NCBI RefSeq assembly: GCF_003324485.1
Contig: NZ_QODK01000003.1
Location: 806,001-870,000, forward strand
DNA: 64,000 nt
DNA from: Cohaesibacter intestini
GTDB lineage: Bacteria > Pseudomonadota > Alphaproteobacteria > Rhizobiales > Cohaesibacteraceae
Reading direction: 5' to 3'
The stretch's first letter is position 1. Each line of letters begins with the position of its first letter. Made by a program: the position numbers and the translations under genes. Shown piece by piece: positions 42,487 through 46,843 of the stretch. Below the pieces are notes generated by a model. The model ran no database searches, was not told the origin of the DNA, and was given only the letters and a program-made list of their open reading frames with translations.

Positions 42487-44022
42487 TCAATAGGCATTGT
42501 CCTGATTGAGCAGCTTGAGTGGCGTGACGGCAAGGATATATAGATCCATCGATAACGACCAGTTTTCGATATAGTAGATATCATGCTGGACACGCTGCTT
42601 GAGTTTCTCCGGATCGTCAATTTCACCGCGCCAGCCATGGATCTGCGCCCAGCCTGTGATGCCCGGCTTGACCTTGTGGCGCGCCATATATCCGTCGGCC
42701 ACTTCCTCGAACAATTTGTTGTTGGTCTGCTGGTGCGGCACATGGGGCCGGGGGCCAACCAGTGACAAGGTGCCGGAAAGCACGTTGAACAATTGTGGCA
42801 ACTCATCAATCGACGTCTTGCGGATGAAGCGACCGACCTTGGTGACGCGATTGTCGTTCTTGGTGACCGATTTCTGCGCCTTCTGGTCGGAGCTTTCATG
42901 ATAGAGGGAGCGGAATTTGTAAACGACCACTTCCTCGTTGTTGAAGCCAAGACGTTTCTGTTTGAAGATGATTGGCCCCTTGCTGTCGCGTTTGATGGCG
43001 ATGGCCGTGCCAACCAGCAGGGGAGACAGCACAAGAATAGCTGTCGCCGCGACCACCACATCAAAGGCGCGTTTGAACAACGAACCCCAATTGGCGATCG
43101 GTTTGGCAAAGACCGGCACGGTGGGCAAATTTCCGACATAGCTGTATGTGCGGCGACGGAACTGCATCTTGTTCATGTGAGCGCTCAGATGAATATCAAG
43201 CGGCAGAACCCAGAGCTTGTGCAGCATCTGCAAGACACGATTTTCTGCGGTCACGGGAATGGTGACAATCAGCATGTCGATTTTGCAAAGACGGGAAAAC
43301 TCGACCAAATCACTGACAGTGCCGAGCTTGGGATAGCCCGCGACAATCGCAGGTGACCGGTCATCATCGCGGTCATCGAAAATTCCGCAAATGCGAATGT
43401 CGTTATTTTCCTGCGCTTCCAGTGACTCAATGATTTCTGCCGCTGGTCTCCCACCGCCGACAATAACAGCGCGACGTTCGAGGCGGCCATCGGCCTGCCA
43501 GCGCCGGATAAACAGGGTCTCGATCGCTCGCATGGAGCACATTACGGCCAATCCCAGCGTAAACCAGATGCCCAGCCAAGCGCGGTTTTGTTCCAGATCC
43601 GTGCCAGAAAGAAAGCCGACCAGAAGAAACAGCACGACCAGCATCGTCATCGAGCCAATCACCTTGCCCAGATGCGGCGCCATATTGTTCATTTCATGCA
43701 CATTATAGCCGTCCGCAGACAACATGAAGAGCATGAACAAGGCCGCTCCGACGATCGAGAAGGTCAGTGGCATCTCATATCCGGCCAACTGCGCCCCTCC
43801 CGCGATGGAGTAGGCCGTCAGTCCCATGATCATGACAATCAGAAAATCGGAAAGCTGCACCAGCCCGCGCACCATCATGGGGGCGTAGGTCGTCGTCGAG
43901 AATTCCGAGGCGACTTCACGAGCAAGGTCGGAAATCTGGGAACTTGACCGGAAATCTTCCTCTTGTGCGGTCGCCAGAACAGCACTTGATGAAAAGGCTG
44001 TCTTCGGATCCAGAGCCTGCAT
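42487..44022 (-). CDS. Undecaprenyl-phosphate sugar phosphotransferase (exopolysaccharide initiation)
   Basis: 511 residues from ATG 44022. Four hydrophobic helices (about 50-150), a CoA-binding-like Rossmann middle (AVIVGGGRPAAEIIESL), a fifth helix (VVVAATAILVLSPLL), and the C-terminal bacterial sugar transferase domain with KFRSLYHES, RKTSIDELPQLFNVL, GPRPHVPHQ and VKPGITGWAQI. WbaP/WcaJ/ExoY-type enzymes load the first sugar phosphate on undecaprenyl phosphate. Same strand as the Wza-like gene upstream and divergent from the Wzz-like gene. Confidence 0.92.
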   Translation of the reverse strand: MQALDPKTAFSSSAVLATAQEEDFRSSSQISDLAREVASEFSTTTYAPMMVRGLVQLSDFLIVMIMGLTAYSIAGGAQLAGYEMPLTFSIVGAALFMLFMLSADGYNVHEMNNMAPHLGKVIGSMTMLVVLFLLVGFLSGTDLEQNRAWLGIWFTLGLAVMCSMRAIETLFIRRWQADGRLERRAVIVGGGRPAAEIIESLEAQENNDIRICGIFDDRDDDRSPAIVAGYPKLGTVSDLVEFSRLCKIDMLIVTIPVTAENRVLQMLHKLWVLPLDIHLSAHMNKMQFRRRTYSYVGNLPTVPVFAKPIANWGSLFKRAFDVVVAATAILVLSPLLVGTAIAIKRDSKGPIIFKQKRLGFNNEEVVVYKFRSLYHESSDQKAQKSVTKNDNRVTKVGRFIRKTSIDELPQLFNVLSGTLSLVGPRPHVPHQQTNNKLFEEVADGYMARHKVKPGITGWAQIHGWRGEIDDPEKLKQRVQHDIYYIENWSLSMDLYILAVTPLKLLNQDNAY

Positions 44023-44190
44023 AGTCCAACACCATTGGTTTTGAGTTCGGTTGTGACTAAGAGGATTAACAGCCAATTTTTGAATAAGATTTAACCGACT
44101 GTTTTTCTAAACACGGGTGAACCGCTTTTGGCCATTGTAGTTAACAAAGTTCAAAAGACGACACGCAGCAAGGCTGGCTCATCGGGTCCC

Positions 44191-44748
44191 TCAGAAAAGC
44201 CGCTCGCGAACATAGATGGTGTCACCCGGACGCACCGGGGCAGTCAGCTTGACGCGGCCTGTCAGGATCTTGCCATTCAACTGCCGCGTGACATCGACAT
44301 AGCGTTGCTGGGCGCGCGGCGAGAAGCCGCCTGCAATGGCAATGGCTGTCTGCACCGTCATGCCGGTGACATAGGCATATTGCCCGGCAGTGGTCACTTC
44401 ACCCATAACAAAGAACGGCCGATACTGGGAAATTTCGACGGACACGTCAGGATTCTTGATGAAGCCATTTTCAAGGCGTGCGGCAATGTCCCGCGCCAGA
44501 TCGTTCGTCTCGCGGCCACGGGCCACCACATTGCCGATCAACGGCACCGAGACATAGCCCGACTGGTCTACTGTATATTCATTATTCAGTTCGGTCTGAT
44601 TGTAGACAATCAATCGCACCCTATCTCCTGAATCGAGCAAATAGGGCCCGACGAGGGATTTGTGGAAGGCTTCGCCTGCAGGCCGGTAGCTGGAGCAACC
44701 TGCCAAACCGGAAATTACGGCCAAAAGAACGAGAATACGAACAAACAT
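44191..44748 (-). CDS. Polysaccharide export lipoprotein (Wza/OtnA family)
   Basis: 185 residues. Signal peptide with lipobox GLAGC (Cys18). Poly_export domain YLLDSGDRVRLIVYNQTELN ... DQSGYVSVPLIGNV, then an SLBB-type segment FVMGEVTTAGQYAYV. At under 200 residues it is much shorter than E. coli Wza and resembles the short rhizobial ExoF/GumB-like type that lacks the C-terminal outer-membrane helix. Probably a periplasmic/outer-membrane export component working with the divergent Wzz-like protein. Confidence 0.9.
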   Translation of the reverse strand: MFVRILVLLAVISGLAGCSSYRPAGEAFHKSLVGPYLLDSGDRVRLIVYNQTELNNEYTVDQSGYVSVPLIGNVVARGRETNDLARDIAARLENGFIKNPDVSVEISQYRPFFVMGEVTTAGQYAYVTGMTVQTAIAIAGGFSPRAQQRYVDVTRQLNGKILTGRVKLTAPVRPGDTIYVRERLF

Positions 44749-44950: not shown

Positions 44951-46633
44951 ATGCCCAATCAGACCAGTCAAAGTTCCAACAACAACGCCATGCCTGTCAG
45001 ACAGCCATTTTCGCATGCCGGGTGGTTGCTGTGCCTTGCTTTGCTGTTGCCTTTGGTGGTCGCTTCGGTCAGTGCATATTGGGTGACGATGCAGGAGGAG
45101 AGCTACCGCGCAACCGCCAATATTCTGATCCTGGCGCCCAATGAGCGCTATATACCGGAGCAGGGGGCTGCCCAGTCGGTTTCTGACTGGCAGAATGCAG
45201 ACCGAATTGTTCAGGATGCACGGCAATTGCTGTTTGGGGAAGGAGAGCGGACAAGTGCCCTGATGGCCAAAGTTTCTTTATCCTTTGACGCAGCCTTGCG
45301 AACCCTGTCGATCCGAGTAACCGACGAAGACCGTGAAGAGGCAATGAACAATGCCAACCGGCTGGCAAATGCGTATCTCTCCCGGTTGAAAGCCCGCCGC
45401 GCCACGCAGTTCCATGATGCAGTAGACAAGCTTGCTACCGATATTTCCGCGATTGAGTTCCAACAGGTCGCTCTGACCGCTAGGCTGGCTCCCAATCCAG
45501 TTCCCCAATTGGAGAGTGACGCTGCTCTTCAAACCTGGAAGGAAAAGGAAGCCCAACGGATCGCCGGGGTGCAGAAAAGCATCAATGCTACGGACCGCAT
45601 TCTCAACAATATGCGCAACTTGCACCAACAGGCCGTTACAAAACAGAAATATGATCTGTTACCGCCAGAAGCACGACTGCTCGTGCGTGCATCGCTGCCC
45701 GAATATTCGATCAAGGCAAGCGCGCTGGGCCTCTTTGTGAAGACCCTATGGATCAGCGCCCTGTCGATGGTGTGTCTTTGGGGGATCTACAGCCTGCATC
45801 TGCGACGCAAGTCTGCTCGCCGCTCTGCTGTGCGTCCAGACCTTCCGGTCTCTCTGGAAAAACCTGACGTTGACACACGCAATCCGATTGCAGTCGATTC
45901 GACCTCTATTTCTCAGTTGCCAGTACCATTGGAGACAGTGCCTCAGGTGACAGTTCCTCTGGTGACAACTCCACAGGCACCGGTGCAACAGGCCCCTGTG
46001 GCTGCCCCTTCACCCGTCCACGACATCATGTCTGGGACAGACTTGGACATGGAAAGCGTGGCCTTGCAAATACGGGCCACTGGGCACCAACGGGTCGTGC
46101 TGCTGTCAGAGAGTGGCCGCTGGGGTGAACAGGCGAACATCCTCATGCAGGCGCTGATGGATCTCGATCAGGCTGTTCTGTTGGTCAGATTGGGAGATGC
46201 AGGCGCGGATCACGCTCATGCAGGTATCACCGATCTCATCGATCAGACCGCCAGCTATGCCGATCTGGTGCAAATCGATGATAACACAGGGCTGCATCAC
46301 ATCGCTCGCGGTACGCGGGCAATGCGTCTTGAGGACTTCTTCAGTCATGAATTTCATGGGTTGCTGCTGGCTCTGGAAGAGGCATGCGATATCGTGTTGA
46401 TTGATCTCGGTAGCCATTACGACAATGACTATGCGCTGAAGAGTCTGGGGATTGCTCGCGATGCACTGGCCTGCATTGACGCACCCGATGCCGGGGAATC
46501 GGTTGCCCAACAGGTGCGAGCCGTGATAGGGCATTTCGGTTATCAGGACTGCCTGATCTTGCCGTTGGATTGCAAAAAGCAGCTGGATCTCATCGGTTAT
46601 GAAGAACAGGAAAAGGCCATTGCGGCCGAGTGA
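44951..46633 (+). CDS. Wzz/GumC-like chain-length protein fused to a degenerate BY-kinase-like domain
   Basis: 560 residues from ATG 44951; a GTG at 44909 is an alternative, and neither has a well-spaced Shine-Dalgarno. A first membrane helix (GWLLCLALLLPLVVASVSAY), a coiled periplasmic region (about 60-250) and a second helix (LWISALSMVCLWGIYSL) form a Wzz-type protein. After a Pro/Val-rich linker, residues about 360-555 look like the cytoplasmic kinase domain: RVVLLSESGRWGEQAN takes the P-loop place but lacks GKS/T, while the Walker B-like DIVLIDLG remains. No C-terminal tyrosine cluster is seen. Probably regulatory rather than catalytic. Confidence 0.82.
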   Translation: MPNQTSQSSNNNAMPVRQPFSHAGWLLCLALLLPLVVASVSAYWVTMQEESYRATANILILAPNERYIPEQGAAQSVSDWQNADRIVQDARQLLFGEGERTSALMAKVSLSFDAALRTLSIRVTDEDREEAMNNANRLANAYLSRLKARRATQFHDAVDKLATDISAIEFQQVALTARLAPNPVPQLESDAALQTWKEKEAQRIAGVQKSINATDRILNNMRNLHQQAVTKQKYDLLPPEARLLVRASLPEYSIKASALGLFVKTLWISALSMVCLWGIYSLHLRRKSARRSAVRPDLPVSLEKPDVDTRNPIAVDSTSISQLPVPLETVPQVTVPLVTTPQAPVQQAPVAAPSPVHDIMSGTDLDMESVALQIRATGHQRVVLLSESGRWGEQANILMQALMDLDQAVLLVRLGDAGADHAHAGITDLIDQTASYADLVQIDDNTGLHHIARGTRAMRLEDFFSHEFHGLLLALEEACDIVLIDLGSHYDNDYALKSLGIARDALACIDAPDAGESVAQQVRAVIGHFGYQDCLILPLDCKKQLDLIGYEEQEKAIAAE

Positions 46634-46642
46634 TCCTGTCGA

Positions 46643-46843
46643 CTAATCCTTTTCCATCCAGCGGATGATCAAACCCGCAGGCACCACCCACAACGCACCG
46701 GAAATCACAAAAAAGATAATCTGAACCCAGCCGCTGGCATTGGCGACGACAGCGGCGCCTACGGTCATGCCGACCGCGGCATAAAGAATGATCCAGGTCA
46801 CCAAAAGGATCATGCCGATGAATTTGCGCGTGCGTTTGTTCAT
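46643..46843 (-). CDS. DUF2842 small membrane protein
   Basis: 66 residues from ATG 46843 (MNKRTRKFIGMILLVTW). Two hydrophobic helices with VGMTVGAAVVANASGWVQII between them and WVVPAGLIIRWMEKD at the end, the DUF2842 pattern. Found near ctaA in many alphaproteobacteria; function unknown. An upstream in-frame ATG at 46858 is possible. Convergent with the Wzz-like gene, 9 bases away. Confidence 0.85.
   Translation of the reverse strand: MNKRTRKFIGMILLVTWIILYAAVGMTVGAAVVANASGWVQIIFFVISGALWVVPAGLIIRWMEKD

Follow-up and report, generated by a model that had tools for sequence, protein, structure and literature searches.

A short PCP-2-like membrane protein of Cohaesibacter with a fused BY-pseudokinase domain and a shortened periplasmic arm

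The analysed window, a stretch of 64,000 nucleotides from the genome of Cohaesibacter intestini, contains on its plus strand an open reading frame whose product is a PCP-2-like membrane protein of the short form that carries a BY-pseudokinase domain (44951..46633; ATG at 44951, stop codon ending at 46633, 560 codons ahead of the stop, 560 aa). Walker A, Walker A' and the tyrosine tail of this domain have been lost across a clan of relatives that spans the order, and in this lineage the periplasmic arm has been lost as well and the Wzy and sugar genes of the associated cluster are absent. The protein is probably a descendant of PCP-2 co-polymerases whose membrane and periplasmic part is still fused to the BY-pseudokinase, and which serves as a phosphorylation-independent scaffold together with a priming transferase and an outer-membrane exporter. 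PCP-2 proteins are thought to require a phosphorylation cycle that switches them from octamers to monomers and back. This requirement appears to have been dropped in an old clan across a bacterial order, and polysaccharide export may proceed in one genus with no recognised BY-kinase.

The initial annotation had described divergent wza-like and glycosyltransferase genes beside this open reading frame, and both could be confirmed. The first encodes a Wza-like short outer-membrane export lipoprotein of 185 aa (44191..44748, minus strand; PF02563 71.5 bits, SLBB 33.7 bits), which we label as D1D2 type, and the second a WcaJ-type polyprenyl-phosphate (undecaprenyl-phosphate) glycosylphosphotransferase (42487..44076, minus strand; TIGR03023 458 bits, above the cut-off of 410.75). 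On the 3' side of the PCP gene a DUF2842 gene is followed by CtaA/COX15; the small DUF2842 membrane protein between PCP and CtaA is encoded at 46643-46843 on the minus strand (PF11003 70.4 bits). Whole-protein searches of the window PCP protein returned no Pfam or NCBIfam family above cut-off. The Wzz family PF02706 matched neither this protein nor the short form L025, and TIGR01005 gave no match to the window protein at E<=1. The long family members L035 and L041 reach PF02706 at 29.3 and 32.8 bits, above the gathering cut-off of 25.5.

The domain layout was derived from AlphaFold2 models and alignments, and residues are given in P0001 numbering, which leaves out the initiator methionine and is therefore one lower than the numbering of the complete protein; all features of the protein lie on the plus strand. 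According to the full-length model mfeba287f9498, two predicted transmembrane helices (residues 21-46, 45014..45091, and residues 255-290, 45716..45823) flank a periplasmic alpha/beta and helical domain as in PCP-2 proteins, an assignment of modest confidence that is further backed by orthology and synteny with the PF02706-positive long forms. This model is poor overall (pLDDT 66.4, pTM 0.40), and both structure models were built from 7 sequences. A shortened periplasmic helical hairpin (residues 127-232, 45332..45649) was delimited from the same model and from length comparison across the family. The second helix is followed by a Pro/Val-rich cytoplasmic linker (residues 291-354, 45824..46015), which is probably disordered (pLDDT <50 over 287-363) and at 30% identity is the least conserved stretch between the window protein and its G015 orthologue. 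The BY-pseudokinase domain proper covers residues 355-540 (46016..46573) and was modelled with pLDDT 81.6 and pTM 0.80. The last codons encode AAE (46622..46630), where a tyrosine tail would be expected.

Structural and profile comparisons indicate that the cytoplasmic domain has the predicted fold and the ancestry of BY-kinases. In the VIA search the domain model aligned to 19 BY-kinase rows with Z 15.7-18.5, and MinD, the next family, starts at 12.3. The best row was VpsO (Z 18.5, 177 residues, 2.9 A), followed by the other 18 BY-kinase rows at 15.7-17.7, among them Etk at 17.2. The full-length model returned the same ranking, and in Foldseek its top 20 rows were all Wzc chains. A profile built from 16 family members (A1) found Wzc (4.3e-10, spanning Wzc 210-643), BceF (3.3e-6) and VpsO (1.5e-4) among PDB sequences, and Etk at merely 0.41; a profile from the short forms alone (A2) still reached BceF (2.1e-4) and VpsO (1.2e-3), and the single window sequence found VpsO only, with E 0.076. 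Aligned by hhalign to ten P-loop BY-kinases, the domain scored 97.6% (E 2.6e-12, 170 columns), compared with 0.2% for a control with the genome's own ParA. Both the structure prediction and the HMM comparison proposed in the initial annotation thus relate the domain to BY-kinases.

Most kinase motifs of this domain are gone, as the initial annotation had already read from the letters. The general layout is retained: in an alignment of 105 sequences RVVLLSE falls on the beta-1 strand, and hhalign places DIVLIDLG (46388..46411) on the Walker B strand, where the Asp is kept and both D479 and D484 are invariant in A1 and A2. At the position of the Walker A P-loop of true BY-kinases, given as GEGKST in the initial annotation, the alignment shows SGRWGEQAN (46112..46138), and LVRLGD (46181..46198) occupies the Walker A' position (LLIDAD), both Asp residues being gone. 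No tyrosine cluster follows, with at most 3 Tyr in the last 40 residues, and EX2RX2R, which we take to be the oligomerisation motif before beta 1 of BY-kinases, is missing too. The Walker B Asp is therefore the only kinase motif left in a domain that otherwise shares fold and ancestry with BY-kinases, and the protein joins a PCP part to a kinase fold without Walker A or tyrosine tail, as is characteristic of fused BY-pseudokinase PCP-2 proteins.

The survey of orthologues that had been suggested as a check revealed that the P-loop loss is not a local decay but is common to relatives across the order. No intact P-loop, defined as GK[ST] at the corresponding alignment position, was present in any of the 18 family loci outside the window. 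The alignment of 105 comprises 109 loci without L105 (no match), L028 (broken), L119, L127 and L131 (truncated or domainless) and L048 (partial), plus the window protein and a 918-aa paralogue from the same genome. GK[ST] occurs in 45 of these sequences. A FastTree tree, which is effectively unrooted and was displayed with midpoint rooting, separates with support 1.0 a group of 49 sequences that includes all 45 P-loop-bearing ones from a group of 56 without any GK[ST], which by our count of family labels come from 25 families of the order. We speak of a clan because an effectively unrooted tree does not distinguish one loss from several. A tail with at least 4 Tyr among the final 40 residues was counted in 0/56 P-loop-less sequences (maximum 3) and in 29/45 P-loop-bearing ones, and the strict EX2RX2R pattern in 0/56 and 20/45, respectively. 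The four members of the P-loop side that lack GK[ST] are L137 (GAT), L103 (AKS), L142 (GRS), which neighbours GKS sisters in the tree, and the 918-aa paralogue. Relic loops read GRP in six sequences and GRT in L128, which has retained the Walker A' Asp pair, and such loops appear to mark the path of decay.

The two groups were partly chosen by design, since the P-loop-bearing sequences were obtained mainly by a TIGR01007 search and the P-loop-less ones by the family profile. Crossing cases exist in both directions: L129, from the family-profile search, has GKS, and L152 and L153, from the TIGR01007 search, are without a P-loop and were placed in the P-loop-less clan. Among the 40 non-family loci from the family-profile search (the 20 best matches and 20 picked mostly as one per family), 36 carry a P-loop-less domain, one is L129 and 3 are truncated or domainless, which is not an unbiased frequency. 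At a threshold of 1e-5 the family profile matched 274/297 genomes of the order, P-loop PCPs being counted among them.

Within the family, a PCP match at E<=1e-3 was obtained in 19/20 genomes, including that of the window. A single-protein scan of the genome contigs for relatives found none, and the scan was repeated with the A1 alignment. The gene order transferase - exporter | PCP - CtaA - further genes is family-wide: the exporter adjoins the PCP gene in 17/18 other family loci and the transferase is present in 16/18, the exceptions being a contig end in G019 and G018, where no transferase was seen within the 18 kb read. Six genomes (G002, G005, G006, G007, G018, G019) have a long PCP of 677-847 aa, and twelve, the window's included, an intact short PCP of 536-637 aa, which corresponds to 12/18 Cohaesibacter genomes. 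In the tree a long branch leads to the short forms, and their orthology to the long forms is deduced from synteny rather than from the tree. In G013 the PCP gene is missing between exporter and CtaA (L216 9438-11680), a natural deletion that has spared the transferase, the exporter and the 918-aa PCP. In G009 the PCP is split into two overlapping open reading frames (L028 8427-9828) and the adjoining Cys-metabolism gene is split too, from either sequencing errors or decay.

Long-form loci also carry GT4, acetyltransferase, deacetylase and Wzy-like genes within the contigs or stretches read, named after the Pfam assignment of the G002 genes. In searches with one protein query each at 1e-8, which leave room for other Wzy families, the Wzy, glycosyltransferase, acetyltransferase and deacetylase were each detected in the same 7/20 family genomes, namely the six with a long PCP and G010, where the acetyltransferase was matched only weakly (22% identity, 6.4e-10). 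The PCP of G010 is a short one, and the four cluster genes lie about 90 kb away from it beside a 493-aa PCP of their own, so that 13/14 genomes without an intact long PCP are also without all four cluster genes. The separate G010 cluster (L217 7486-17110) consists of relatives of the glycosyltransferase, deacetylase, acetyltransferase, Wzy and transferase together with this 493-aa PCP, which is too small to include a kinase domain; no PF02563 exporter gene was found there.

Long and short forms differ in the periplasmic arm. The helical region that matches residues 127-232 measures 89-106 residues in 12/12 short and 238-240 in 6/6 long family members, which means that about 130-150 residues of the arm are gone. 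Among 58 further sequences 54 have a region of 229-244 residues, the others being L140-L142 (108-120) and L139 (207); the 30 loci L085-L114, cut at the N-terminus, were left out of the 58, and two of them (L099 and L101) read 163. The PCPs L140, L141 and L142 belong to one other family and likewise have a short arm, with GKS in two and GRS in the third, and they are possibly a second, younger start of the same decay. In a comparison with E. coli Wzc, residues ~312-366 (the motif 3 arm) had no counterpart in the family profile. As described in the excerpted text on the Wza-Wzc structure (PMC12881504), Wzc contacts Wza through K332, Y334, T335 and H338; changing all four residues abolished polysaccharide production, and Y334 and T335 alone had little effect. 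Wzc without the motif 3 helices is reported, in the excerpt of PMC8285477, to form octamers and to keep kinase activity but to yield no polymer. Because the missing counterpart of Wzc 312-366 includes the Wza-touching stretch, the short form would by analogy be unable to make a Wzc-type contact with its exporter.

Despite these losses the reading frame is under purifying selection, as judged from dN/dS values of 0.12-0.21 in 6/6 short pairs (NG86 method; two of these pairs, with dS of 1.97 and 1.73, are close to saturation), and this selection covers the pseudokinase domain too. In the same pairs exporter and transferase gave 0.03-0.07 and CtaA 0.04-0.14, so the short form lies about 2.4-7x above transferase and exporter and 1.5-4.8x above CtaA. 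Relaxed constraint is thus part of the picture, given the raised dN/dS and a second transmembrane helix that is just 33% identical between the window protein and G015. The kinase-like part is more identical than the periplasmic part in 5/6 short pairs and less identical in 3/3 long pairs; in the remaining short pair the periplasmic part is better conserved. Considering the shared branches, and the near-saturated dS and small differences in some pairs, these comparisons amount to a trend rather than a test.

The fold, the order-wide motif losses and the selection values together decide between several readings of the domain. An unrelated Rossmann fold could be suspected from a protein that passes no Pfam or NCBIfam cut-off, but A1, A2, hhalign and VIA all point to BY-kinases, and the gap in Z between 15.7-18.5 and 12.3 for MinD together with the ParA control rules this candidate out; we give it practically no credence. 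Fast evolution of the short form, the broken copy in G009 and the missing gene in G013 would be compatible with a kinase that decayed recently or with a pseudogene of this strain. Such local decay is ruled out by the P-loop-less orthologues and the dN/dS values and is extremely improbable, as the P-loop is missing in 18/18 other family loci and in 56/56 sequences of the clan and the gene is under purifying selection. An atypical kinase that binds nucleotide or phosphorylates through unusual residues would find an argument in the two invariant Walker B-like Asp residues of the short forms, but it is improbable, since the P-loop Lys, the Ser/Thr and both Walker A' Asp residues are gone, the loop is unconserved among orthologues and the tyrosine tail is missing. 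The initial reading as a pseudokinase is therefore upheld by fold, by profile ancestry and by an order-wide absence of the Walker A and A' motifs and of a tyrosine tail.

The end of the protein may offer a lead to what replaced the tyrosine tail. The clan ends in alanine, with -AA in 29/38 and -A in 35/38 non-family members; long family members end in -A in 6/6 and in -AA in none, and the short forms end in -AAE or -AAQ in 12/12. Such -AA endings were seen in 3/49 sequences of the P-loop side and in 6/210 and 2/99 other open reading frames of the fetched loci (8/309), all of these being raw counts of related sequences. In Streptomyces, two terminal alanines are a recognition site for ClpP proteases, according to the excerpted text of PMC9775585. 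As a lead only, the clan-wide Ala-Ala tail might have taken the place of the tyrosine tail, as a docking peptide for the neighbour's dead active site or as a protease signal, in which case docking or turnover would have replaced a switch formerly run by phosphorylation. For the short forms the Glu or Gln cap disfavours a free-end degron and favours a docking tail.

The claim that this is the only co-polymerase holds within the window but not for the genome, which encodes a 918-aa Wzz/GNVR protein at C1:128840-131593 (L053 7838-10594, minus strand). Close orthologues of this second PCP were found in 16/20 family genomes, with GK[ST] in the last 200 residues in 0/16; several keep relics such as TSAQPGDG, and the C-terminal domain is read from its sequence as BY-kinase-like. 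A further 379-aa protein has a Wzz match below cut-off and is presumably KpsE-like. TIGR01007 gave nothing above cut-off over the window's genome, and two weak matches (E<=0.01) resemble ParA and Mrp/ApbC, judged from the matched fragments; the open reading frame beside the ParA-like match is presumably ParB. In a sample of the order, TIGR01007 matched at 1e-20 in 70/150 genomes; the listed rows, from which 60 genomes lacking a match are absent, include 5 family genomes, and none of these 5 was matched.

What the protein does can be proposed with less certainty. It would be incapable of autophosphorylation, and any cycle of assembly and disassembly of an inner-membrane oligomer would therefore not be driven by tyrosine phosphorylation. 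The cytoplasmic domain may act as a static or partner-gated scaffold, the dead kinase domain most likely binding partners without ATP hydrolysis, and such a scaffold could anchor either the exporter and the priming transferase or a regulator from the cytoplasm to the membrane. A scaffold role has been proposed for EcpK and HfsB in the excerpt of PMC12004946. Counter-evidence comes from G013, where the short form has been lost and transferase and exporter are retained without it. More weakly, the short form would no longer be a full co-polymerase, as the exporter-reaching arm is gone and the original polymerase was not found.

Regulation of chain length without phosphorylation, as initially suggested, is doubtful for the short form, because the periplasmic arm, on which polymer output depends in Wzc, is missing and the cluster's usual Wzy has no match in the genome. 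An ordinary chain-length regulator that happens to be a pseudokinase, with Wzy encoded elsewhere and a short arm sufficing, is rather unlikely, yet it has several points on its side. A short arm could do, as in the Gram-positive CapA or the PCP-1 Wzz, and fused pseudokinase PCPs are reported from rhizobia in the excerpted PMC12004946. In addition, a flippase and glycosyltransferases are encoded at another locus (C1:121000-140500), whose genes may need the window exporter, given that PF02563 finds none there; besides the window exporter the genome has a single PF02563 gene (C1:585250), and no relative of the window transferase lies within C1:575000-610000. Against this reading stand the 918-aa PCP that the C1:121000-140500 locus has of its own, the one-protein query at 1e-8 that did not match the cluster's own Wzy in the window genome (other Wzy families are possible), and the loss of polymer output on deletion of the Wzc motif 3 helices (excerpt of PMC8285477). 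Returning to the preferred scaffold, a tentative extension, itself rather unlikely, is that the protein gave up its co-polymerase role in most Cohaesibacter once the polymerase, glycosyltransferase, acetyltransferase, deacetylase and arm were lost, and that constraint left the periplasmic part and settled on the dead kinase domain. If so, what has been retained, in a genome without a detected BY-kinase, is a membrane-anchored pseudokinase platform together with a short exporter and the priming transferase. These relatives form a natural series, from intact P-loops over GRS, GRT and GRP relics to none, and from long arm over short arm to gene absence at the same syntenic spot, which allows one to ask which part of a co-polymerase is essential and what selects for a dead kinase domain.

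Among known systems, Wzc of E. coli (PCP-2a) shares the membrane and periplasmic part with a cytoplasmic BY-kinase fold, but it has the P-loop and the tyrosine tail, and its helical arm contacts Wza; none of these features is present in the window protein. All five long P-loop-less relatives tested match the ExoP-type model TIGR01005 with 213-377 bits, four of them over most of its length, and all remain below the cut-off of 411.7 bits. Fused pseudokinases occur in S. meliloti, Brucella and Mesorhizobium, which we take to belong to the same order as the window organism. The examples listed after Cuthbertson et al. in the excerpt of PMC12004946 are S. meliloti SMc01795, Brucella ceti BCETI_6000729, Mesorhizobium Mlr8439 and V. 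vulnificus VV1_2305, which by published description likewise combine a PCP part and a BY-pseudokinase in one polypeptide; the window form has in addition lost the periplasmic arm, and its genome is without the cluster's Wzy and glycosyltransferase genes. In EcpK of Myxococcus xanthus (with EpsV), too, a BY-kinase fold is combined with the absence of the Walker A and A' motifs and of the tyrosine tail, but EcpK is a stand-alone partner protein without a Walker B match as far as that excerpt describes it, whereas the window protein retains the Walker B Asp. HfsA/HfsB of the Caulobacter holdfast is likewise a kinase-dead PCP-2 system of an alphaproteobacterium; according to the same excerpt it is bipartite and HfsA has no fused domain, in contrast to the fused window protein. 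The kind as such is thus already known, since fused BY-pseudokinase co-polymerases were reported in rhizobia (excerpt of PMC12004946). Among the papers listed from an open-licence library, none was seen to report a pseudokinase PCP that is short and armless, and what is new here is the loss of the arm, its coupling to an absent polymerase cluster, and a lineage that has no recognised BY-kinase.
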